A DNA stretch of 38,823 bases from the NCBI GenBank assembly GCA_026992315.1, contig JALXAG010000237.1:1-38823 (forward strand), given 5' to 3'. Shown one piece after another: positions 17,088-32,092 of this stretch (the stretch's first letter is position 1; every line of letters starts with the position of its first letter). The DNA comes from Sneathiellales bacterium. GTDB taxonomy: Bacteria; Pseudomonadota; Alphaproteobacteria; Minwuiales; Minwuiaceae. Made by a program: the position numbers and the translations under genes. Under the pieces are notes generated by a model. That model made no database searches. It had not been told where the DNA came from and saw nothing but the letters and a program-made list of their open reading frames with translations.

Positions 17088-17759
17088 TTACATTGGATTG
17101 CCGGGACCGGTCAAACGGTCCGACTGCGACACCCGGTCGCAGCCGCTGGCCGCATATTCCAGCGCCTGTTCCAGACGGTCGTCGCCCCAGAACAATTCCC
17201 CGTCGGCGAGGAAGCTGGGCGCACCGAAGATGCCGATTTCCCCGGCCCTGCCGACAGCATCCCTCAGCTTGCCCTTGATCTCTTCCGATGCAGCGCGGCG
17301 CAGTATTTCTTCGCCATCCGCCCCGGCCTGCCCCAGACAGGAAAGAATGTTTTCCCTGTTGGCGATGTCCTTGCCCAAACAGAATTCCTGACGGAAGACC
17401 AGTTGGCTGAAACGCCGGCGCTGCGCCGCATCGTCGATGGCTATCGCCGCACGCGCCGCCAGCAGGCTGTGCTGGGGAAACGGATCGGGCCGGGAGATGG
17501 CGGGCAGACCATACCGCCCCGCCAGGCGCTGAACATCGCGCCACATATATTCGCCCTTTGCCTTGTAGAGAACGAAAGGCGACGTGCTCCAGCCCTGTTC
17601 CCTGAAAATCGGGCCCAGCAAAAACGGCCGCCAGATCACCGTAACGCCGCAATCCGCCGCCAGATCGTCGATGCGCATGGCCGAAAGGCAGGAATAGGGG
17701 CTGGCGAATTCATACCAGAACTCGATCATCCGCTCTTCACCGTAATGCGTTTTCTCCAT
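17088..17759 (-). CDS. DsbA-like thioredoxin-fold protein, 2-hydroxychromene-2-carboxylate isomerase family
   Basis: 223 residues. The thioredoxin-fold start IEFWYEFASPYSCLSAMRI has Ser-Pro-Tyr in place of a CxxC pair, as in HCCA isomerases (NahD) and kappa-class glutathione transferases, where a Ser activates glutathione. Later landmarks are VTVIWRPFLLGPIF, AISRPDPFPQHSLLAARAA and the cis-Pro loop IGIFGAPSFLADGELFWGDD. An AAGGAGG ribosome site stands 7 bp before ATG 17759. The likely role is glutathione-dependent isomerisation in aromatic breakdown, but no other catabolic gene is adjacent. Bases 17651-17733, inside its 5' part, recur at 19400-19482, and a decayed piece of a relative lies at 12909-12985. 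Confidence 0.88.
   Translation of the reverse strand: MEKTHYGEERMIEFWYEFASPYSCLSAMRIDDLAADCGVTVIWRPFLLGPIFREQGWSTSPFVLYKAKGEYMWRDVQRLAGRYGLPAISRPDPFPQHSLLAARAAIAIDDAAQRRRFSQLVFRQEFCLGKDIANRENILSCLGQAGADGEEILRRAASEEIKGKLRDAVGRAGEIGIFGAPSFLADGELFWGDDRLEQALEYAASGCDRVSQSDRLTGPGNPM
17651..17733. repeat. 83-bp direct repeat, copy A (inside isomerase gene)
   Basis: This copy is codons about 10-36 of the isomerase-family gene. It matches 19400-19482 in the same orientation with four mismatches by eye over 83 bp. Confidence 0.9.
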
Positions 17760-19399: not shown

Positions 19400-19482
19400 A
19401 ATCAGCCGCCAGATCGTCGATGCGCATGGCCGAAAGATAGGAATAGGGGCTGGCGAATTCATACCAGAACTCGATCGTCCGC
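19400..19482. repeat. 83-bp direct repeat, copy B (orphan 5' fragment of isomerase gene)
   Basis: A displaced piece of the isomerase coding sequence on the minus strand, about 95 % identical to 17651-17733, without the start or remainder of the gene. It supplies the last codons and stop of the neighbouring peptidase gene. The preceding 19292-19399 holds no recognisable gene. Confidence 0.9.
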
Positions 19483-20961
19483 GGCATCGGCCGTTCCCCC
19501 CGTCCCTTCGAATATCTGCCTGGCCTGCCTGGCCAGACCGGCCGCATCCCAGGAGACAGCCGTCACCCTTCCGACCTTTCGCTTCCAGTCTTCGGCGCTG
19601 CCGGCGGCATAGAAATTCTCTATGAGAAAACCGGCCATTTCCGGAGCGAACGGATAGGAAGGTGCAAATCCGGCCTGCATCTCCCTGTGGATCAGCTTAG
19701 CAAAAAACTCCCCCAGAAGCATATGCATAAAGTGAAAGGGGGCGTTGAGAAAATAGTGATAGGGAAACGTGTAATTCCGCACCCTTTGCCTGACCCGCAA
19801 AAAGCCGATCCCCTCCCCCTCGGGACAGCGGTAGATATCGCGCTCCATTTTCGCATTGGCCAGCCAGTCGCCGTAGCGGTAGATATCGGCCTGCTTGTCA
19901 TATTCGCCGATCTTCGCCCCCGCCGTGCCGAAGTAACGGGACAGCCAGCGCCCGTTACCGGCAAACAGATTGAAAACCTGCGCCATGCACTCGTGATAGC
20001 AAGGCGAATCCTCCCACTGATAGGCATAATCGTCCTGCGCGTTATAGCGGGCACAAAGGAAGTGGCCGAATTCGTGATAGAGGATTTTCCATACCCGCAA
20101 GCCATCCGTCTGATTGCACAGAACATGGATCCTGTCGGGAACACGCTCGATGAACGTCAGGGCGTTATAAGGCATGTCCAGCGGATGAACGGCCAGCCGC
20201 CGCGCCCGCCCGTCGAACCCGGCCCTGCGGGTGAAATCATTATATACCGGCATGAGATTCCTGAAACTGAACAGCCGGTCGAAGGGGCGCAGCGGCCGGT
20301 TGACCGCATAAAGCATATCCCACGGCGCCAGGCTTCCGCCCTGACCGCGCCATTTTTCGGCAAGGCGCGCATAAGCCGGTTCAATCGCGGTAGCGGCCGC
20401 ATTGAGGATGGCATCCGTCTGCGCCCCGCTCAATCCGCAGATATCGGCCCATAATTCAGCAAAATCCTCATAGCCGAGGTCACGGGCAATCCGGTTTCTC
20501 CGGTCGATGCAGGCCGTCACCAGCGGATGCAGTCTCTCTTCAAGCCGCTCGCGGCGCTGCCAGACACCCTGCCTTCTCTTCCTGTCATCGTCATTGAGAA
20601 GACAATGCAATGTATTCTTGTGCGTATCGCGGCCATGCCCCCTTTCAAAGGCGCCGATCAGTCCGTTGGCCCGTTGCAGGATCCGGCTCAATTCCGGATC
20701 CGTCTTCAGATGGTTTCTTATGATCAGGCGGTAATACAGGCCCTGTCTGCTCTCCGCGCCGCCGTCAGCGCGCCATGCCCCGCTTCGGATGGCTGAAAGA
20801 TATCTGCCGTCGCTCAACAATGCCTGAAGCCGCTGCCCGGCCCGGCTTCCTCCCCCGCCCCGCGCGGTCGCGCGTCTCCAGACATCGCGGTTGTGTTCGT
20901 CCCTGAGCGCCTTCAGCCGCCTGCTGAATTCCCCGGAAAACTGCGCGACACCGTCATCCAC
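19459..20961 (-). CDS. M2 (ACE-like) zinc metallopeptidase of the peptide-maturation locus
   Basis: About 500 residues, starting at GTG 20961, four bases after the radical SAM stop, so translation is probably coupled. The gluzincin site is complete: H296-E-F-G-H300 and third ligand Glu324 in CYHECMAQ. The 24-residue spacing from second His to Glu equals that of angiotensin-converting enzyme, and the C-terminal NYTFPYHYFLNAPFHFMHML followed by GSAEDWKRKV also fits M2 rather than M3. No signal peptide is seen, so it acts in the cytoplasm, presumably removing the leader or trimming the modified peptide. The last six or seven residues (ADDRVLV) and stop come from the 83-bp repeat, so the natural tail may have been replaced; the catalytic body looks intact. 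Confidence 0.82.
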   Translation of the reverse strand: MDDGVAQFSGEFSRRLKALRDEHNRDVWRRATARGGGGSRAGQRLQALLSDGRYLSAIRSGAWRADGGAESRQGLYYRLIIRNHLKTDPELSRILQRANGLIGAFERGHGRDTHKNTLHCLLNDDDRKRRQGVWQRRERLEERLHPLVTACIDRRNRIARDLGYEDFAELWADICGLSGAQTDAILNAAATAIEPAYARLAEKWRGQGGSLAPWDMLYAVNRPLRPFDRLFSFRNLMPVYNDFTRRAGFDGRARRLAVHPLDMPYNALTFIERVPDRIHVLCNQTDGLRVWKILYHEFGHFLCARYNAQDDYAYQWEDSPCYHECMAQVFNLFAGNGRWLSRYFGTAGAKIGEYDKQADIYRYGDWLANAKMERDIYRCPEGEGIGFLRVRQRVRNYTFPYHYFLNAPFHFMHMLLGEFFAKLIHREMQAGFAPSYPFAPEMAGFLIENFYAAGSAEDWKRKVGRVTAVSWDAAGLARQARQIFEGTGGTADAADDRVLV

Positions 20962-20965
20962 CGCT

Positions 20966-22633
20966 TCAGCCTATGGTCAGGACCTTGTCCTCGGCATAGG
21001 TTTCGATTTCCCCGTCCTCCTCGATCGGATTGAGGTAAGGCATTTTCTGCAGCAGCCCTTTCTTCAGGCATGCCTCGATAACGACATCGACCTTTCTTGC
21101 CGCATCGTCACGGCTCAGATCGAACAGCTTGGCAACGATTTCGCTGATGTGCTCCTTGTCGTTATAGCCATCGCAATGCAACAGAACCTCATAATGAAAG
21201 GCGCTGATCTTCAGGCAGTTCTGATAGAGATCGGTGGTCTTTCTTTCAGGGGGATTCTCTGAATTGTACAACAGCCCGCCATCGCTGGTTCTGATCAGCA
21301 CGGCGCCCTTGACGCGGCGGTAGCATTCCCCGTCCTGCAGGCGCGCGCCCTTGGTCCGGAAGAAATAGCTGCACAGCATCCTCGCTTCGATGATCTCATG
21401 CTCATCCATGATCGAAGTACGGTGAATCGGCTCGTCATGCTGCGACCAGCGGCTGTAATCGTTATTGAAGATATGAATGTCCGAGGCCTGGGGATTCCTG
21501 AATTGCGGCGTGCCCGGATAGGGCTTGTAGGTAAAATCCCGGACCATCGACGGCCTGATGTCCTGCAGATAGCGGATAGTGGCGATATCGCTCATGAACG
21601 TCGATTCCGGCAGTCCGAATATGGCGAAGGCGAGCGGCCGTATCCCCGCCTCCCGCGTCATTTCGAACACTGCCTTCGGATTGCTGCCGTTCTTGCGGCC
21701 CACATCCTTCAGTGTTTCCGGATCGCCGCTCTCGACCCCGTAACCGATCAGATCGCAGCCGGCGGCGGCCATCTTCGCCAGCAGCTCCGGATCGACATAT
21801 TCGAGTCGCGTCATGCAATGCCAGGCAAATTCCATATCGGAGGCCGCTATCCTGTCACACAACGCCCCGGCCAGTTTCTTGTCTATGGTGAAGATATCGT
21901 CGTGAAAGTAGAAATAGCGGAACCCCTTGTCATAGGCCCAGCGCAATTCCTTCATGACCCTGTCCAGCGGATATGTACGGTAAGCCCCGCGCTGGAAGGA
22001 CGACGTGCAATATTCGCATTTGAACAGGCAGCCCCGGGTCAGGGCCAGAATATAGCGCTCCTTCCTCTCGACATAGACGTCGATCGGCAGCAGATGATTG
22101 GCGGGGAAAGGCTCCTCGCTCAAATCCTGGATAAGACGGGCCGGCGGCGTTCGCCTGACCTCCCCCTTGCTGCCGCGATAGGCAATGCCATTGACCGTGG
22201 AGGCGTCGCCCCCGCTCAATAAGGTTTCAATCAGTTCGGGGCCTGAATAATCCCCCTCGCCGACAATGACGTAATCGACCTCCGGGGCCCGTTTCAGGGC
22301 ATCCTCCGGCGCCCAGGTGACGTAGGTGCCGCCAACGATAACGGGCACGCTTTCGTCTATCTGTTTCGATATCTGCGCGACCCTGCGCACCATCGGATAA
22401 TTATAGGTGGAACGGTTCGAGATACCGACAAGGCGGGGCCGTATGCGGCGGATTTCCGCTTCGACCTCTTCGAAGGACATTTCCAGAATCGCCGCATCCA
22501 GTATCCGGACATCGATGCCCCGCCGTTCGAGCCAGGCCGCAATGATCGTCAAATTGCGCGGCGGATCGATCATGTTGTACCTGAAAGGCGGATTGATCCG
22601 GAACGGAGGATTGATCAGCAGGATATCGGTCAT
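20966..22633 (-). CDS. B12-binding-type radical SAM enzyme with C-terminal PqqD-like recognition domain
   Basis: 555 residues from ATG 22633 (GGTGGAG ribosome site; GTG 22645 is an alternative). Residues 1-150 form a cobalamin-binding-like Rossmann domain (ILLINPPFR, IIVGGTYVTWAPEDAL-like segment, VDYVIVGEGDYSG), without an obvious DxHxxG motif. The radical SAM core begins at TRGCLFKCEYC, with cluster ligands Cys202, Cys206 and Cys209; FYFHDDIF and YGVESGDPETL are further core motifs. Residues about 437-530 resemble PqqD: AVLIRTSDGGLLYNS, CLKISAFHYEVLLHCDGYND, then helices ending ACLKKGLLQ. Such a domain binds leader peptides (RRE). No SPASM Cys cluster is seen. It likely modifies the 43-residue peptide encoded just upstream, for example by C-methylation or a carbon-centred crosslink; the reaction is unknown. 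Confidence 0.85.
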   Translation of the reverse strand: MTDILLINPPFRINPPFRYNMIDPPRNLTIIAAWLERRGIDVRILDAAILEMSFEEVEAEIRRIRPRLVGISNRSTYNYPMVRRVAQISKQIDESVPVIVGGTYVTWAPEDALKRAPEVDYVIVGEGDYSGPELIETLLSGGDASTVNGIAYRGSKGEVRRTPPARLIQDLSEEPFPANHLLPIDVYVERKERYILALTRGCLFKCEYCTSSFQRGAYRTYPLDRVMKELRWAYDKGFRYFYFHDDIFTIDKKLAGALCDRIAASDMEFAWHCMTRLEYVDPELLAKMAAAGCDLIGYGVESGDPETLKDVGRKNGSNPKAVFEMTREAGIRPLAFAIFGLPESTFMSDIATIRYLQDIRPSMVRDFTYKPYPGTPQFRNPQASDIHIFNNDYSRWSQHDEPIHRTSIMDEHEIIEARMLCSYFFRTKGARLQDGECYRRVKGAVLIRTSDGGLLYNSENPPERKTTDLYQNCLKISAFHYEVLLHCDGYNDKEHISEIVAKLFDLSRDDAARKVDVVIEACLKKGLLQKMPYLNPIEEDGEIETYAEDKVLTIG

Positions 22634-22656
22634 TGCGGGCTCCACCAGAACGGCTT

Positions 22657-22689
22657 GAAATAAAAGGCTGCCAGATTTCTCTGGCAGCC
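22657..22689 (-). terminator. Attenuator-like terminator between precursor and radical SAM genes
   Basis: Minus strand: GGCTGCCAG-N6-CTGGCAGCC followed by TTTTATTT, a proper intrinsic-terminator shape 16 bp after the precursor stop and before the radical SAM start. Partial read-through would give many precursor copies per enzyme. Confidence 0.85.
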
Positions 22690-22704
22690 GAACCGAAACC
22701 CGGA

Positions 22705-22836
22705 TCAGTAACCGGGGCCCACGGGCAGGGCGTCTTCCTGCAGGATGACTTCCATTTCGTCATCCATTTCAAGCGCCTCGTGCTCGGTCGCGGTTTCCTC
22801 TTTGACCTTGTCGTGCTTCACATCGATTTTCGACAT
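22705..22836 (-). CDS. Putative RiPP precursor peptide, 43 residues
   Basis: The small ORF runs from ATG 22836 to TGA 22705 with an excellent ribosome site (AAGGAGAAAG). It reads MSKIDVKHDKVKEETATEHE, then ALEMDDEMEVILQED, then ALPVGPGY at the C-terminus. The first 35 residues are charged and strongly acidic, as expected of a leader. The last eight are neutral, Pro/Gly-rich and end in Tyr, as expected of a core. It is the first gene of the locus and is followed by a terminator-like hairpin and the RRE-bearing radical SAM enzyme, a typical RiPP order. No known precursor family is recognised. Confidence 0.8.
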   Translation of the reverse strand: MSKIDVKHDKVKEETATEHEALEMDDEMEVILQEDALPVGPGY

Positions 22837-22900
22837 AGCTTTCTCCTTCCTGGCTATGCGGCAGACAGTCCGCCGCACAACCATTCTGCTACCAAGGGTT

Positions 22901-22929
22901 TTATTATCAACAATGTCACACTATTGTAA
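22901..22929 (-). promoter_or_regulatory. Putative promoter of the peptide locus
   Basis: Minus strand TTACAA (22929-22924) and TAATAA (22906-22901) at exactly 17-bp spacing, 65 bp upstream of the precursor start. A short inverted repeat ACAAT-N8-ATTGT (22910-22927) overlaps the -35 and spacer and could be an operator. Confidence 0.45.
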
Positions 22930-23092
22930 CTTGGGAAGAGCCCCGAAGGACGGCGCAGCATCCGAACAGGGAAAGACACGGCTCTGCCGGATGGCGCGGC
23001 AGCAGAAAACGCCGGAAGCCGGGGATTGAGGATGCAACGACACACCGCCGGAAAGGGAGGGTGGAGAATACAGGGATGAAAAATGGAAAAAA

Positions 23093-23169
<77 letters not shown>

Positions 23170-23300: not shown

Positions 23301-23532
23301 GCCTGCCAGAACCTCTAGTCAGGGTTGAAGTCATGTTTGCACATCCTTTTCTCCCGTCTCTTTGTAACAGCGGGCATCGCCGGTTCCGAACGACGCCGGG
23401 CATTTTGCCGCCCGGGCCTTAACCTGCCGCACGAGGCCCGGCCCTTCGCAATTCACGCCCACGACGGCGAAACGATATTCAATCCCTGCCGGTATCTTGC
23501 AGGAACCGGCACCTGGAACAGGGACAACACCC

Positions 23533-25746
23533 TTGAGTAGAAAAACCATAATATTCTGTCGCGCATTTTCCGCCGTCTGCCTTTTGCTGGCGGTACTGGT
23601 TCTTGCCGCCTCCGCCATGCCTGCACAGGCGCGGACGGGGCCGGTAATCGCTCATTACATCAAGAAAATTCCCGCCGGGGAACTCGTTGCCGGGGCCACG
23701 GCCTATGGGCCAATGGAAAAGGACCTGCCTGTGGTGCCCATCCTGAAAGGGCATGAGCGCATCGGCTATGCCTTCATCACCTCCGATTTTGTCAGCACCA
23801 CCGGCTATTCTGGCAAACCCATTCACGTGATGGTCGCCATCGATCCCAATGGCGTGCTGCTTCGCGCACTGCTGGTGAAACATTCCGAACCGATCGTTCT
23901 GGTCGGGATTCCGAACAGCAAGATGAAGGCCCTGACCGAAAGCTATCGCGGCATGAATGTCGTCAGCGAAGCCGCCGCCGGTGGCTCCGCCCACGATCTG
24001 GACATCATCTCAGGGGCGACCGTGACGGTGATGATCATCGACGATTCCATCGTGCGCGCCTCGATCAAGGTGGCCCGGGCGCTGGGCTTGGGCGGCCTGA
24101 AGGCCGAGGCCGAAAACACCGGCCCCGCCTATGTGCTGAACACGCAGGAAACCACCATCAAGGACTGGGCGACCCTGACCGGCGACGGCTCGGTACGGCG
24201 CCTGACCCTCGATGTCGGACAGATCAACAAGGCCTTTGCCGAATCCGGCGATCCGCGCGCCCAGAAAAACCCCGCGAAGGGCGATCCCACGGATACATTC
24301 ATCGACCTGAACGTCGCCCTGGTATCGGTTCCCGGCATTGGCCGCAGCCTGCTGGGAGAGGCCGAATACGCCAATCTGCGCAAGTGGCTGAAGAAAGGCG
24401 ATCAGGCGATCCTCGTCATGGGGCGCGGACAATATTCCTTCAAGGGATCCGGTTATGTGCGCGGCGGGATCTTCGACCGTATCAAGCTTGTCCAGGGCGA
24501 TATATCGGTGCGCTTCCGCGACCGCGATCATCGGCGCGTCGGCAGGCTGGCAGCGGAGGATGCGCCATCCTTCAAGGAAGTGGATCTGTTCAGGATACCG
24601 GCGAAATCGGGCTTCGACCCCACCAAACCATGGCGGTTGCAACTGCTGGTGCAACGCGCCGTCGGCCCGGTGGAGAAAACCTTCCTGACCTATGACCTCG
24701 GTTATTCGCTGCCATCACAATACCTGACGAAAATCATGCCGGCCGCCGCCCCTGCTGCGACCGCGGCCCCCGCGGCGGCAGACAACGGCAATGGCCGGGC
24801 CCTGCTGTGGAAACGCATCTGGCAGGACAAGATCGTCGAAGTCGGGCTGCTCATCGCCATGCTGACGATTCTGACCGGTGTGTTCTTTTTCCAGGTTCAG
24901 GCCACACGCAATGCCCGCGCCTTCTATTGGTTCCGCATGGGCTTTCTCGCCGTGACCCTCGTCTTCCTGGGCTGGAGCCAGAATGCCCAGCTTTCCGTGG
25001 TCAATCTGATGGCGCTGGGTTCGTCGCTGGTTCATGGCTTCAGCTGGGATGCCTTCCTCATGGATCCGCTGGTCTTCATCCTGTGGACATCCGTGGCCGT
25101 GACCCTGCTGTTCTGGGGTCGCGGCGGCTTCTGCGGCTGGCTGTGTCCTTTCGGCGCCCTGCAGGAAATCACCAACCAGATCGCGCGCTTCTTTAAGGTT
25201 CCGCAGTGGAAGCTGCCCTGGGGGCTGCATGAACGCCTCTGGCCGATCAAATACATGATCTTCCTCGGCCTTATCGGCGTTGCCGTTGTCTCCATCCCCC
25301 TGGCCGAACATCTGGCCGAAGTCGAACCGTTCAAGACCTCGATCATCCTGAAATTCGCCCGTGGCTGGCCCTATGTGCTTTATGCCGCCATCCTGCTGGG
25401 CATCGGCCTGTTCATCGAACGTTTCTACTGCCGCTATCTCTGCCCGCTTGGCGCGGCCCTCGCCATTCCGGCCAGAATGCGCATGTTCGACTGGCTGAAG
25501 CGTTACCGCCAATGCGGCAACCCCTGCCAGACCTGTGCCAATGAATGTTTCGTTCAGGCGATCCACCCCACGGGAGAGATCAACCCGAACGAATGCCTGT
25601 CCTGCCTGCATTGCCAGGTTCTGTATCAGGACAGGAAAAAGTGCCCGGTGGTGATCAAGCGTCTCCGCCGGCACGCAGCCGTAGCAAAATCAAACGAGGC
25701 TCTGAAAAAGAGCCTCACCCACCCGCAGCAACCGAAGGGGAACTAA
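23533..25746 (+). CDS. nosR: NosR, membrane flavo-iron-sulfur regulator/electron donor for N2O reductase
   Basis: About 737 residues. I prefer TTG 23533, since it yields [20 protein letters not shown] as signal peptide; TTG 23497 is the other option and there is no ATG before the mature part. A periplasmic FMN domain carries the covalent-flavin motif SGATVT (near residue 160). After it come membrane helices and two polyferredoxin-like Cys motifs in loops ([11 protein letters not shown] near 533 and CRYLCPLGA near 632). The C-terminal cytoplasmic clusters are [12 protein letters not shown] and CLSCLHC. NosR passes electrons to NosZ and is needed for its expression. It is the first gene of nosRZDFYLX; nosZ starts 2 bp after its stop. 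Confidence 0.93.
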
Positions 25747-25748
25747 CC

Positions 25749-27659
25749 ATGGCTGACAGTAAAGACAAAAAAACGGCTCTCACGCGTCGTGACATCCTGA
25801 CCGGCCCGGTGAAAGGGGCCGTACTGGCAGGGGCCGCCGCCGCCATTGGCGGCGGGGCCGCCCTGACGCCGTCACCCGCCAAGGCCGCCCGTTCCACCGA
25901 GGTCGCCCCCGGCGAACTCGATGAATATTACGGTTTCTGGTCTTCCGGGCAGTCAGGCGAACTGCGTATTCTTGGCGTACCCTCCATGCGCGAACTGATG
26001 CGCGTACCCGTCTTCAACCGCGATTCGGCCACCGGCTGGGGCATTACCAATGAATCCAAAAAGATCCTGACCGAGGGCCTGACCCAGGAAACCAAGGAAT
26101 TTCTGGCCAAACAGGGCCGGGAAACCTACGATCACGGCGACCTGCATCACCCGCACATGTCCTTTACCGACGGCACCTATGACGGGCGTTACCTGTTCAT
26201 GAACGACAAGGCCAATACCCGCGTGGCCCGGGTACGCTGCGACGTGATGAAGCCGGACAAGATCATCGAAATTCCGAATGCAAAGGACATCCATGGCCTG
26301 CGCCCGCAGAAATACCCGCGCACCGGCTACGTCTTCGCCAATGGCGAGCATCGGGTCCCGCTGATCAATGACGGCACCAATATGGATGACGTCAAGAATT
26401 ACGTCTCCATCTTCACCGCCATTGACGGCGATACCATGGAAATCGCCTGGCAGGTGATGGTTTCCGGCAATCTCGACAATGTCGATTGCGACTATCAGGG
26501 CCGCTATGCCATGTCCTCATGCTACAATTCGGAAGAGGCCACCGATCTGGCCGGCATGATGTCTTCCGAAATGGATCATGTCGTCGTTTTCGACATTGCC
26601 AGGATCGAAGCCGCCGTCAAGGCCGGCAAATACGAGGTCCACAACGGGGTGAAGGTACTGGACGGCCGCAAGACTTCGGACCTGGGCATCACCGTCTACA
26701 TCCCCATTCCCAACAGCCCCCATGGCGTCAATACCGCCCCCGACGGCAAATACGTCATGGTCAACGGCAAACTGTCGCCCACGGTTTCCGTGATCGAATG
26801 GGACAAGATCGAGGCGGTCTTCCAGGGGGCCGAGCCGCGTTCGGCCGTTGTGGCGGAGCCGGAACTCGGCCTTGGCCCGCTTCACACCGCTTTCGATGGC
26901 AAGGGACATGCCTTCACCACCCTGTTCCTCGACAGCCAGGTGGTGAAGTGGGATATCGAAAAGGCCATTCGCAAATACAAGGGCGAGGATGTCGATCCGA
27001 TCATCGAGAAGGTCGATGTGATGTACCAGCCCGGCCACAACCACACTTCCATGGGTGAAACCAAGGAGGCTGACGGCAAATGGCTGGTTTCGCTGAACAA
27101 GTTCTCGAAGGACCGCTTCCTGAACGTCGGCCCGCTGAAACCCGAAAACGACCAGTTGATCGACATCTCCGGCAACAAGATGGAAGTCGTTCATGACGGC
27201 CCCACCTTCGCCGAACCGCATGACTGCATCATCGTGCGCCGCGATATCGTCAATCCGGTCAGCGTCTGGGACCGCAACGATCCCATGTGGGCCGAAGCCC
27301 GTGCCCAGGCCAAGGCCGACGGCGTTGTCCTGGAAGAAGGCCATGACGGCGTTATCCGCGACGGCAACAAGGTCCGTGTCTATATGTATTCGTCGGCACC
27401 GACCTTCTCGCTGAGTGAATTCAGGGTCAAACAGGGCGATGAGGTCACCATCTACATCACCAATATCGACGATGTGGACGACCTGACCCATGGCTTTACC
27501 CTGGGCAATCACAACATCGCCATGGAGATCGCGCCTCAGGCCACGGCATCGGTCACCTTCACCGCCGACCGGCCGGGCGTGCACTGGTATTATTGCCAGT
27601 GGTTCTGCCATGCCCTGCATATGGAAATGCGCGGGCGCATGCTGGTCGAACCGGCATAA
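25749..27659 (+). CDS. nosZ: TAT-dependent nitrous-oxide reductase NosZ (clade I)
   Basis: 636 residues. It reduces N2O to N2 in the periplasm using a CuZ cluster and a CuA site. The N-terminus has a twin-arginine signal (TRRDILTG, then an Ala/Gly-rich stretch to PAKAA), which marks clade I. CuZ ligands are visible in DLHHPHMS (near residue 132) and in the later His residues of EHRVPL, SPHGVN, PLHTAF, GHNHTS and EPHDC. The CuA domain at the C-terminus has [12 protein letters not shown] with both Cys, the His and the Met ligands. ATG 25749 is chosen; the frame stays open upstream through the end of nosR only by chance. Confidence 0.97.
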
Positions 27660-27671
27660 GGAAAGGCTGCC

Positions 27672-28931
27672 ATGCTGCGCCATCTGCTGACCGTCGCCGT
27701 TTTTCTGTTCCCGGTCCTGGCCGGGGCGGAGGAGCGTTTCGTTCCGGCAGCGGATGGCGCGCTTGCAGCCGCGCTGCAATCGGCCCGGGCGGGGGATATT
27801 CTCCGCCTGGGCCCCGGCACCCATCGCGGCCCGGTCACGATAACGACGCCGCTGACCCTGGAAGGCAGCAGCGCCGTTATCGATGGCGGCGGCAAGGGAT
27901 CGGTCATCACCGTCAGGGCCGCCGATGTAACGATCAGGGGGCTGACGATCATCGGATCGGGTTCCGGCGGTAACGGGCTCGATGCCGGCATTACCCTGAC
28001 CCAGGCGGCAACGCGCGCCCGCGTGGAAAACAACCGGCTCATCGGCAATCTGGTCGGGATCGACATTCACGGTGCGAAAGACGCCCTGATTCTGAACAAC
28101 AGGATCGAAGGCCGCCGGGATCGCAGAATGAACGACCGGGGCAATGGCGTCTATGTCTGGAACGCCCCCGGCGCAAGGGTCATCGGCAACGATATCCGCT
28201 GGGGCCGGGACGGTATCTTCGTCAACACCTCACGCGACAATGAATTCATACATAACCGCTTCCGCGACCTGCGCTTTGCCGTTCATTACATGTATGCGAA
28301 CAATTCCACCGTTGCCCGGAACATCTCGACCGGCAATCACCTGGGCTATGCGGTGATGTTTTCCGATCGCGTCCGCATAGAAAACAATCTCTCACGCGGC
28401 GACCGCAATTACGGCATTATGCTCAATTACACCAACAACAGCACCATTTCGGGCAACCTCATTGAAAATGTGAAGAATAAATGCGTTTTCATCTATAACG
28501 CCCACAAGAACGTCTTCCGCGGCAACCGCTTCGAAGGCTGCGGCATCGGCATTCACTTCACCGCCGGATCGGAACGCAACGTCATGAGCGGCAATGCCTT
28601 TATCCGCAATCGGGTACAGGTGAAATATGTCGGTTCCAAATGGGTCGACTGGAGCAAGGACGGACGCGGAAACTACTGGTCGGACCATCCTGCCTATGAC
28701 CTGAACGGCGACGGCATCGCCGATGCGGCGTACCGTCCCAACGACATCATGGACAAGGTGCTCTGGAGCCAGCCCTCGGCGAAGCTTCTTCTCGGATCGC
28801 CCGCCGTGCAGCTGATCCGCTGGGCACAGGCCGCCTTCCCCGCCATTCTTCCCGGCGGGGTTATCGACCGGGCGCCGCTGATGCAACCGCCGGCCATCGC
28901 GGCCCCGGCATGGAAGGATACCGTGCAATGA
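27672..28931 (+). CDS. nosD: NosD, periplasmic right-handed beta-helix protein for CuZ maturation
   Basis: 419 residues. A signal peptide (MLRHLLTVAVFLFPVLAGAE) is followed by repeated parallel beta-helix coils of the N-x-I-x-x-N type (VENNRLIGNLVGIDIHGAKD, VIGNDIRWGRDGIFVNTSRD and more). The end DWSKDGRGNYWSDHPAYDLN is typical of NosD/CASH proteins. It works with the NosFY ABC transporter to supply sulfur or copper for building the CuZ site. Confidence 0.95.
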   Translation: MLRHLLTVAVFLFPVLAGAEERFVPAADGALAAALQSARAGDILRLGPGTHRGPVTITTPLTLEGSSAVIDGGGKGSVITVRAADVTIRGLTIIGSGSGGNGLDAGITLTQAATRARVENNRLIGNLVGIDIHGAKDALILNNRIEGRRDRRMNDRGNGVYVWNAPGARVIGNDIRWGRDGIFVNTSRDNEFIHNRFRDLRFAVHYMYANNSTVARNISTGNHLGYAVMFSDRVRIENNLSRGDRNYGIMLNYTNNSTISGNLIENVKNKCVFIYNAHKNVFRGNRFEGCGIGIHFTAGSERNVMSGNAFIRNRVQVKYVGSKWVDWSKDGRGNYWSDHPAYDLNGDGIADAAYRPNDIMDKVLWSQPSAKLLLGSPAVQLIRWAQAAFPAILPGGVIDRAPLMQPPAIAAPAWKDTVQ

Positions 28932-29833
28932 GCTGCCTGCGCATCGATAATGTCAGCAAGACATACGGCACGCTGCAAACCGTGCGCGGGGTCAGCCTGC
29001 GCATCGTGCCGGGCGAACGCGTTGCCCTGCTCGGCCACAATGGCGCGGGTAAAACGACGCTGATGCGGATGATTCTCGGCCTTACCGCCATCACTTCGGG
29101 CATGATCGATGTCCTCGGCCATGCGCCCGGATCGCGCGCCGCCCACGCGCTGACGGGTTTTCTGCCCGAAAGCGTGGCTTTCCACGGCGCCTTGAGCGGA
29201 CGGGAACAACTTCATCATTTCGCGCGGCTGAAATCGGTGCCGGTGACGCAGGCCGATGCCCTGCTCGAACGGGTCGGCCTGGATCATGCCGCGGACCGCA
29301 AAATACATACCTATTCCAAAGGCATGCGCCAGCGTGTCGGCCTGGCGCAGGCTCTGCTCGGGCGGCCGCGGCTGGCCCTGCTGGACGAACCGACCAGCGG
29401 CCTGGACCCGATCTCCCGTCATGAATTCTACGACATCATCGATGAACTGGCCGCGGGCGGCACGGCGGTGCTGCTTTCTTCCCACGCACTGACCGAACTT
29501 GAAACCCGCACCGACCGCATCGCCATTCTGAGCAAGGGCCGCCTCCTGGCTGACGGCAGTCTGGCCGATCTGCGCCGGCAGGCGCATCTCCCCGTCAGAA
29601 TACAGGTGACGGCCCGCCGCGAAAGCGCGGAAAACATTGCCAGAACCCTTGGCGGGCAGCGCATCAACGGCGCCTCGGTACTGTTGTCCTGCCCGCAGGA
29701 GGAAAAGCTGGCCCTGCTCGAACGGGTGACCGGCTTCGGCGAAGCGGTCCGGGATGTCGATATCATTCCCGCCAGCCTTGAAGAGCTATACCGCCATTAC
29801 AGCGCACCGGAAGGGGGAGGAGAGACGGAATGA
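28928..29833 (+). CDS. nosF: NosF, ABC ATPase for NosZ maturation
   Basis: 301 residues; ATG 28928 overlaps the nosD stop (ATGA). Walker A is GHNGAGKT, signature YSKGMRQRVGLAQALLG (the NosF variant with SKGM), Walker B LALLDEPTSGLD, H-loop SSHALTELE. It energises NosY and is required for CuZ assembly. Confidence 0.95.
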   Translation: MSCLRIDNVSKTYGTLQTVRGVSLRIVPGERVALLGHNGAGKTTLMRMILGLTAITSGMIDVLGHAPGSRAAHALTGFLPESVAFHGALSGREQLHHFARLKSVPVTQADALLERVGLDHAADRKIHTYSKGMRQRVGLAQALLGRPRLALLDEPTSGLDPISRHEFYDIIDELAAGGTAVLLSSHALTELETRTDRIAILSKGRLLADGSLADLRRQAHLPVRIQVTARRESAENIARTLGGQRINGASVLLSCPQEEKLALLERVTGFGEAVRDVDIIPASLEELYRHYSAPEGGGETE

Positions 29834-30648
29834 AGGCCTTCGCCATCGCCAGGCTGGAACTGCTGATCGCCCGGCGCAACATGTGGGTGGCGACATCGGT
29901 CATCCTCATGGCCCTGTTCACATTCGTGCTGACCCTGGCCGGCGGCGCCCCCACCGGCACATTGGGCGCCGATCCGCTGACGGTCGCCGCAACCTCGGTC
30001 ACCACCCTGTCCGTCTATCTGATTCCGCTGATCGGCCTGCTGCTGTCCTTCGATGCCATCGCCGGCGAGGCCGAACGCGGCACCCTGGCCCTTGGCCTGA
30101 CCTATCCGTTGTCGCGCAGGGAAATCCTGCTCGGCAAATTCGCCGCTCATCTTGCCGTGCTCGCCTTTGCCGTGGCCATCGGCCTGCTGGTCATGGTGGG
30201 GCTGATCCTGTGGCGCCACGGCAGCGCAGGCCTGTCGCCGGAACGGCCGCTGAAACTGTTCGCGACGTCACTGGCCCTCGGCGCTTCCTTCCTCGGTATC
30301 GGTTACTTCGTATCTGCGCTGGTACGCCGCTCGGCCGTGGCTTCGGGAATCGTCATCCTGATTTGGCTTGTATGCATCGTTCTTTACGATCTCGGCCTGC
30401 TCGGCATTCTCATCGCCGATGAGGGCGGGACGTTCACCAGGGACGTTTTCCCCTGGCTTCTCGCCGCCAATCCGGCGGACGCCTTTCGCCTGATCAACAT
30501 GCCCGCTGAAACCGTCTCGGTGCTGAGTTCCGACCTCGGCGCCGCGGGCAGTGTCGTCGGTACGGGTATGGCGCTTGCCTCGCTGATGCTGTGGCCCCTG
30601 CTGACCCTGTTCGCAGCCTGGCTGGTCTTCAGGAGGCTGGAACCATGA
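29830..30648 (+). CDS. nosY: NosY, ABC-2-type permease for NosZ maturation
   Basis: 272 residues with six predicted membrane helices and a conserved cytoplasmic stretch after helix 2 (DAIAGEAERGTLALGLTYPL SRREI). ATG 29830 overlaps the nosF stop by 4 bp. It is the channel partner of NosF and docks to NosD in the periplasm. Confidence 0.94.
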   Translation: MKAFAIARLELLIARRNMWVATSVILMALFTFVLTLAGGAPTGTLGADPLTVAATSVTTLSVYLIPLIGLLLSFDAIAGEAERGTLALGLTYPLSRREILLGKFAAHLAVLAFAVAIGLLVMVGLILWRHGSAGLSPERPLKLFATSLALGASFLGIGYFVSALVRRSAVASGIVILIWLVCIVLYDLGLLGILIADEGGTFTRDVFPWLLAANPADAFRLINMPAETVSVLSSDLGAAGSVVGTGMALASLMLWPLLTLFAAWLVFRRLEP

Positions 30649-31190
30649 AGCTTGGAACCTTGAAGCCGCTGCTGATCCTGGCCCTGCCCCTGGCATTGCT
30701 GGGCGCCTGCAACGAACAGGCCGCGCAGAACGAATTGCCCGCCCCCCGCCATCTGAGCGAGGAAGCCGCCGGATATTACTGTCAGATGGTCGTGCTCGAT
30801 CATGCCGGCCCCAAGGCACAGCTTTTCCTTTCCGGCATGCCGGAACCGCTGTGGTTCAGCCAGGTGCGCGACGGCATCGCCTATCTCAAATCGCCAGAAC
30901 GGGACGGCGAGCCGCTGGTGCTCTATGTCAACGACATGGGCAGGGCCCGCTCATGGGACGATCCGGGGGCGGATAACTGGATCGACGCCGCGGACGCCTT
31001 CTATGTCGTCGGATCCGATGCCCGCGGCGGAATGGGCGCGCCTGAACTCGTCCCCTTCGGCAGCTGGCAGGGCGCAGAAACCTTCATCCGCGATCATGGC
31101 GGAAAAATCATGCGGCTCGATGAAATTCCCGCCGCAACCGTTCTTTCCCCTGTTGAAATCGACCTTTCAGCCAAGGAGGCTGCCCAATGA
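30645..31190 (+). CDS. nosL: NosL, outer-membrane-type copper(I) lipoprotein chaperone
   Basis: 181 residues; ATG 30645 overlaps the nosY stop by 4 bp. A lipoprotein signal ends at lipobox LLGAC (Cys22). The mature part contains YYCQMVVLDHAGPKAQLFLS (Cys-x-Met copper site region) and the NosL fold to DHGGKIMRLDEIP. It delivers Cu(I) to NosZ via the NosDFY machinery. Confidence 0.94.
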   Translation: MKLGTLKPLLILALPLALLGACNEQAAQNELPAPRHLSEEAAGYYCQMVVLDHAGPKAQLFLSGMPEPLWFSQVRDGIAYLKSPERDGEPLVLYVNDMGRARSWDDPGADNWIDAADAFYVVGSDARGGMGAPELVPFGSWQGAETFIRDHGGKIMRLDEIPAATVLSPVEIDLSAKEAAQ

Positions 31191-32092
31191 TCACCCGCCG
31201 CCGCTTACTGACCATACTGGCCGGCGCCGCCGCCATGCCCGTTACCGCCGCGCGGGCCGCGCCGCAACCGGCACAATGGAAGGGCATCGCCCTCGGCGCG
31301 CAGGCACGCATCATCGTCGATCACCCCGACGCGCCGGCTCTGATCGCCCGGGCCACCGCCGAAATCCGCAGGCTGGAAAACATCTTCAGCCTTTATCGCC
31401 GCGACAGCGAATTATCCCGCCTCAACCGGACGGGGGTGCTGGAGGAACCCTCCTTCGAGATGGCCGAGCTGCTGTCGCTTTGCGCCGCCCTCCATATACG
31501 CACCGGCGGTGCCTTCGATCCGACGATACAGCCTTTGTGGGCCGTCTGGGCCGAAGCATCCGTCAAGGGCGCCAGCCCCGATAAAGACCTTCTGGCCCGG
31601 ACCCGGGCACGCACCGGCTGGCGTCATGTCCGTTTCTCCGCCGAACGGGTTGCCTTTTCCCGCCCTGCCATGGCGCTGACACTGAACGGCATCGCCCAAG
31701 GCTATATTGCCGACCGGGTCGCGGCGATATTCCGTGAAAGCGGCATCAAGGACGTGCTGATCGACGCCGGTGAAATCGCCGCCCTTGGCCATGGGCCGGA
31801 CGGCCGGGACTGGCAGATCACCCTCGGCAGACCGGGGGGGCGGAAAATCGCCCTCAGCAATCTTGCCGTCGCCACATCGGCGCCTTTGGGCACCACCTTC
31901 GATGATGACGGCACCCTTGGCCACATCATCGATCCGCGCACCGGCAGGCCGGGGGGGCGGTGGGCCGGCGTCAGCGTGGTTGAACGCTCGGCCGCCGTGG
32001 CTGATGGGCTGTCCACCGCCTTCTGCCTGATGGAAAAGTCGGAAATCGAGGCTGCGAAAGGGTCCGCCCGCGTTTATCTGCGCCCGGCATAG
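31187..32092 (+). CDS. nosX: NosX (ApbE family) FAD:protein FMN transferase
   Basis: 301 residues; ATG 31187 overlaps the nosL stop by 4 bp. A twin-arginine signal (MITRRRLLTILAGAAAMPV) directs it to the periplasm. ApbE landmarks are ENIFSLYRRDSELSRLNRTG, GGAFDPTIQPLW, LNGIAQGYIADRV, DAGEIAALG and GHIIDPRTGRPG. It attaches FMN to the Thr of the NosR motif SGATVT, so the modifying enzyme and its target are at opposite ends of one operon. Confidence 0.95.
   Translation: MITRRRLLTILAGAAAMPVTAARAAPQPAQWKGIALGAQARIIVDHPDAPALIARATAEIRRLENIFSLYRRDSELSRLNRTGVLEEPSFEMAELLSLCAALHIRTGGAFDPTIQPLWAVWAEASVKGASPDKDLLARTRARTGWRHVRFSAERVAFSRPAMALTLNGIAQGYIADRVAAIFRESGIKDVLIDAGEIAALGHGPDGRDWQITLGRPGGRKIALSNLAVATSAPLGTTFDDDGTLGHIIDPRTGRPGGRWAGVSVVERSAAVADGLSTAFCLMEKSEIEAAKGSARVYLRPA

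Follow-up and report, generated by a model that had tools for sequence, protein, structure and literature searches.

Gene content of the cassette

Analysis of a 38,823-nucleotide stretch of DNA from a Sneathiellales bacterium (contig JALXAG010000237.1; this whole stretch is hereafter called the window) showed a tight minus-strand operon of three genes, running from 22836 to 19459 and encoding a short peptide resembling a precursor, a B12-type radical S-adenosylmethionine (SAM) protein and an M2-like zinc metalloprotease. An earlier reading of the letters alone, referred to here as the original prediction, had proposed these three genes in a single operon, and all three were confirmed. Its limits were less exact: the protease gene ends at 19459, inside the truncated start of a fourth gene, and translation of the radical SAM protein may begin at a GTG (22645) or at an ATG (22633). 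The stop codon of the radical SAM gene and the start of the protease gene are 4 bases apart. The following features were assigned to the cassette:

22903-22930, minus strand: weak match to a sigma-70-like promoter ahead of the precursor gene (GTTACA, 16 nt, GATAAT)
22843-22850, minus strand: Shine-Dalgarno sequence GGAAGGAG, read from the sequence, six bases 5' of the precursor ATG
22705-22836, minus strand: precursor gene, 43 amino acids (aa), MSKIDVKHDKVKEETATEHEALEMDDEMEVILQEDALPVGPGY, with an acidic leader and the C-terminus ALPVGPGY
22666-22689, minus strand: predicted intrinsic terminator or attenuator between the precursor and enzyme genes, with a 10-bp perfect stem, a GAAA loop and TTTTATTT
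20966-22645, minus strand: B12-type radical SAM protein, 559 aa, GTG start
21041-21325, minus strand: likely PqqD-like recognition domain, about residues 441-535, within the C-terminal region (425-559) of the radical SAM protein
19459-20961, minus strand: M2-like zinc metalloprotease with the fold of angiotensin-converting enzyme (ACE), 500 aa
19990-20076, minus strand: zinc site HEFGH-x22-HE of the protease, with spacing identical to that of M2 enzymes

The precursor gene looks real, given its strong ribosome-binding site, its top coding score and the terminator directly 3' of it. Its coding score, obtained with a model trained on the long genes of the window, was 0.517 bits/codon, a value reached by none of the 189 open reading frames (ORFs) of 35-70 aa in the window, and its GC content by codon position was 0.68/0.25/0.73. 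The gene is single-copy within its own genome. The encoded peptide contains 13 Asp or Glu residues and ends in ...LQEDALPVGPGY, its sole Tyr being the last residue. The promoter candidate is suggestive only, since three such sites were found in the region vs. 2.0 expected.

The terminator reads GGCTGCCAGA-GAAA-TCTGGCAGCC-TTTTATTT and had a folding z-score of -3.47. A perfect stem of at least 9 bp followed by a T run occurred at a single site in the 38.8 kb window, directly 3' of the precursor gene, and was absent from shuffled sequences. A terminator right behind the precursor gene is a familiar layout in operons for ribosomally synthesized and post-translationally modified peptides (RiPPs), where more precursor than enzyme is needed.

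The radical SAM protein and the metalloprotease

The radical SAM protein matched the Pfam families B12-binding (8.8e-24, residues 28-138) and Radical_SAM (2.5e-20, residues 202-349), and carries the motif CLFKCEYC (CxxxCxxC) at residues 206-213. By its predicted B12-binding domain and its SAM core with this motif, it is a cobalamin-dependent radical SAM enzyme. No SPASM match was obtained in the Pfam scan, which agrees with the absence of such a domain in the original prediction. An AlphaFold2 model, built from an alignment with 26 relatives, had a predicted local distance difference test score (pLDDT) of about 90 across most of residues 31-430, and its top solved matches in Foldseek were TsrM, AprD4, OxsB, CysS, TokK and MgmA, all of which are cobalamin-dependent radical SAM enzymes. 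In a 28-row tree the protein clustered with ApyD-like proteins, with a support of 88 in the Shimodaira-Hasegawa-like approximate likelihood ratio test (SH-aLRT). The host encodes CobN, which makes cobalamin synthesis likely; a binding protein of the BtuF-type family PF01497 was not found in a search of its own genome.

The C-terminal region had been read as a PqqD-like domain fused to the enzyme, which is the family of RiPP recognition elements (RREs), and prediction of its fold had been proposed as a check. This domain is likely a PqqD-like RRE, as the predicted order of strands and helices, Foldseek and hhalign agree, each being weak singly. When folded alone with AlphaFold2, the region showed three strands followed by helices, which is the order found in RREs (PMC10635010, PMC12710340), but the confidence of this model was low (pLDDT 43), and in the full-length model the pLDDT remained below 50 across residues 431-495. 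Eight of the nine best PDB matches of the domain in Foldseek were RREs (TbiB1, lasso peptide B1, PqqD and the PqqD part of PqqCD), with a best E-value of only 0.025. Alignment with hhalign to 28 PqqD domains of other genomes gave a score of 27.6 and a probability of 67%, compared to at most 14.0 in 60 shuffles and in other parts of both proteins. The fused PqqD-like domain thus stands on three lines that agree, but its Pfam score for PqqD (E=0.022, 15.5 bits) was below the cut-off of 23.4.

Pfam matches of the protease were weak and below cut-off for both M3 (0.014) and M2 (0.018), the M2 family PF01401 scoring 14.1 vs. 23 bits required. Profile comparison was more informative: hhalign to eight bacterial M2 enzymes covered residues 4-478 with a probability of 94.6 and a score of 65.8, vs. 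49.2 for three M3-type enzymes and at most 28.6 in the best of 30 shuffles. The proposed M2-type zinc peptidase was thereby supported, and the predicted fold is that of peptidase family M2 with an intact zinc site. The likeness to ACE comprises the full-length alignment, the HExxH-x22-HE zinc site and a retained counterpart of ACE His513. In contrast to ACE, the protease has no counterparts of Gln281, Lys511 and Tyr520 in this distant alignment (about 20% identity). In ACE, these residues hold the C-terminal carboxylate of the ligand (PMC9796954). Because they are missing, the protease is probably no plain ACE-type dipeptidase and may suit a modified peptide end; judged from this alignment, its specificity cannot be inferred from ACE. 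Its N-terminus lacks a hydrophobic, signal-peptide-like start, which fits an intracellular role. The coding score of its gene was only 0.084 bits/codon.

Proposed function and comparison with known pathways

The best reading of the locus is a RiPP-type, peptide-modifying cassette, to which we assign a probability of about 0.72. The original prediction is partly supported: a modified short peptide is probable, the fused RRE is likely and the M2-type assignment of the protease is supported, but a small molecule derived from Tyr, also put forward there, is still a guess. A short, separately terminated transcript would supply plenty of the 43-residue precursor, and read-through would yield less of the enzymes. 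The acidic leader would bind the C-terminal RRE, as suggested by the identity of that domain, and so place the PVGPGY core in the active site. By analogy with ApyD, the B12 radical SAM enzyme would then make a radical modification, most likely C-methylation of the terminal Tyr or of a position next to it, and the M2-fold protease would cut the modified peptide, either to trim the leader or to set free a short product. For the reaction, C-methylation has slightly under even odds, and Tyr as the modified residue is a slightly more tentative assignment.

The fusion of an RRE to a B12 radical SAM enzyme, which was one part of the combination regarded as unfamiliar in the original prediction, is already known from ApyD of the aminopyruvatide pathway (PMC10635010, PMC11002830). 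ApyD is such a fusion (PMC11002830) and methylates its precursor at the beta carbon of the penultimate Tyr (PMC10635010). The cassette shares with this pathway the fused enzyme and a short precursor with a Tyr near its C-terminus (PMC10635010, PMC11002830), whereas the aminopyruvatide cluster further encodes a methyltransferase, a P450 and a multinuclear non-heme iron-dependent oxidative enzyme (MNIO) with its partner, and Asp is the last residue of its precursor. The radical SAM protein scored 115.5 bits against the ApyD family (NF050148), below the curated cut-off of 750 bits, and was not assigned to it. Mycofactocin biosynthesis similarly involves a short precursor ending in Tyr, a leader-binding protein, a radical SAM enzyme and a peptidase (PMC7491314); it differs in its SPASM-type radical SAM enzyme, its separate MftB, its MftE of another peptidase family, and in MftD and MftF, which have no counterpart in the cassette. 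The biphenomycin-like pbs pathway combines a B12 radical SAM enzyme whose targets are aromatic residues with a dedicated metalloprotease (PMC12257519), but has an MNIO, an arginase, a hydroxylase and a TldD-type protease, with the RRE in a separate protein. The new element is therefore the short cassette with its M2-type protease, RRE-fused B12 radical SAM enzymes being already known. No report of an ACE-fold protease maturing a ribosomal peptide was found in the open-access literature.

Among the matches listed, the nearest sequence with a PqqD-like C-terminus, itself weak, was an ApyD-like protein of Streptomyces (L150; 265 bits against ApyD), with 36% identity over residues 102-388; the C-terminal regions of the two proteins gave no direct match to each other. 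ApyD-like clusters of Streptomyces (L150), Mesorhizobium (L205) and Sinorhizobium (L206) resemble the cassette in their ApyD-type B12 radical SAM enzyme and a nearby peptidase gene, and differ in having a second, SPASM-type radical SAM gene alongside and peptidases of the TldD or CPBP type. In these clusters (L150 5638-10519, L205 4808-11223, L206 2847-9841) the ApyD-like enzyme adjoins another radical SAM protein, which in L150 and L206 is nearest to the mycofactocin maturase. Genes of the pyridoxal phosphate (PLP) fold are near in L205 and L206, and the peptidase is of the TldD type in L150 and L205 and of the CPBP type in L206. This arrangement is possibly a separate, undescribed pathway.

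If the RiPP reading is true, the three genes would make up a minimal B12-dependent system for peptide maturation, which could easily enough be reconstructed in Escherichia coli. It would also be the first example known to us of an ACE-fold protease maturing a ribosomal peptide, and would show RRE-fused B12 radical SAM enzymes to be more varied than the ApyD type. A bolder version, in which a new RiPP class uses the RRE-fused B12 radical SAM enzyme to rebuild the C-terminal Gly-Tyr and an ACE-fold protease lacking the carboxylate grip to free a Tyr-derived cofactor or signal, is considered unlikely.

Relatives, alternatives and genomic surroundings

Relatives were sought in 385 Alphaproteobacteria, 399 Pseudomonadota, plasmids, viral contigs and a GTDB scan of 85,000 species. 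All matches of the radical SAM protein in the 385 Alphaproteobacteria and 399 Pseudomonadota ended near residue 380-430, and most of the relatives found are B12 radical SAM enzymes of a generic kind that lack the C-terminal domain; residues 425-559 have no match in the relatives found. No full-length relative was present in plasmids or among the matches listed from the GTDB scan. A scan for close relatives in GTDB genomes, made with the radical SAM enzyme, returned 16 pattern matches, none of which was a relative. For the protease, nothing beyond ordinary M2/M3 enzymes was found in the Alphaproteobacteria, Pseudomonadota or plasmids; the M2/M3 matches in the phylum are ordinary M2/M3 peptidases and were used solely as profile material. 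A scan of viral contigs for HEFGH-x22-HE gave chance matches only. In Indioceanicola, a protein weakly matching the C-terminal domain (L030 9004-9408) proved to be an HU-type DNA-binding protein and was dropped, a false match that warns about hits to short domains.

Several results count against a RiPP-type cassette. Apart from the Pfam score of the C-terminal domain and the low confidence of its predicted fold, the radical SAM protein scored higher against the NCBIfam model of BchE (148 bits) than against that of ApyD, and its placement with ApyD-like proteins was unsupported in a 112-row tree. The operon has no recognised gene for a transporter or for immunity. A relative of the complete cassette was not found in any of the genome samples, plasmids or viral contigs or among the matches listed from the 85,000 species; either the cassette is rare or the searches were insufficiently deep.

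Three neighbouring features bear on the history of the operon:

19400-19489, minus strand: start of a truncated fourth gene of the DSBA / 2-hydroxychromene-2-carboxylate isomerase type, MPRTIEFWYEFASPYSYLSAMRIDDLAAD, overlapping the 3' end of the protease gene
17088-17759, minus strand: intact DSBA/isomerase-type gene (Pfam DSBA, 6.3e-31)
23093-23169: tRNA-Arg(CCG), just upstream of the cassette; such genes are common integration sites

The truncated gene breaks off after about 29 codons. Its first codons and those of the intact gene make up an 83-bp direct repeat of 95% identity (17651-17733 vs. 19400-19482), and the 1.7 kb between the repeats contain an HxlR-like regulator ORF and a membrane-protein-like ORF. 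In sequence, the repeat pair looks like the trace of a rearrangement that displaced the operon end. Before this event, the operon may have carried a fourth gene, for an isomerase/DSBA-type enzyme, possibly the intact gene at 17088-17759, which would now be displaced.

Such an enzyme could have had a finishing role in a mycofactocin-like special case of the RiPP reading, in which a GY or PGY end is modified and then freed, by the protease acting as MftE does, as a redox cofactor or signal. MftA ends in Gly-Val-Tyr, MftC acts on the Val-Tyr and MftE releases the product (PMC7491314, PMC3023750); in the cassette, the single Tyr of the precursor is likewise the final residue, and the lost carboxylate anchors of ACE would suit a C-terminus with an altered carboxylate. 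However, the cassette has a B12-type radical SAM enzyme rather than one of the SPASM type like MftC and PqqE, GPGY differs from CGVY, and the operon contains no recognised gene for a dehydrogenase partner, so that we regard this special case as rather unlikely.

The remaining explanations do without a peptide product. The radical SAM protein could be a small-molecule enzyme akin to relatives of BchE and HpnJ, with the short ORF and the protease as unrelated neighbours and the C-terminal domain as an ordinary winged helix. This would account for the top BchE score of its core, for the sub-threshold PqqD score and for the lack of the C-terminal domain in most relatives found, but it leaves aside that the best solved matches of this domain are RRE/PqqD structures, that hhalign exceeded the shuffles, and that the short ORF is strongly coding with a terminator directly behind it; we consider it improbable. 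Least probable of all is a decaying, horizontally acquired islet beside tRNA-Arg, the product of which is no longer made. The position of the tRNA gene, the lack of relatives in the class and phylum samples, the truncated DSBA/isomerase-type gene, a somewhat lower G+C content (55-59% vs. 60.6%) and the low coding score of the protease gene are consistent with decay. Against it, both enzyme frames are open over their full length with intact active-site motifs, the truncated gene has an intact counterpart at a distance of 1.7 kb, and a search across the window for a second copy of the tRNA 3' end, as a mark of integration, found none.

The cassette is adjoined at 23497-32092 by a nitrous oxide reductase cluster in the opposite orientation, comprising nosR-like, nosZ and nosD/F/Y/L/X-like ORFs. 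Its nosZ, by which the host is probably an alphaproteobacterium, shares 75% identity with a Ruegeria sequence.

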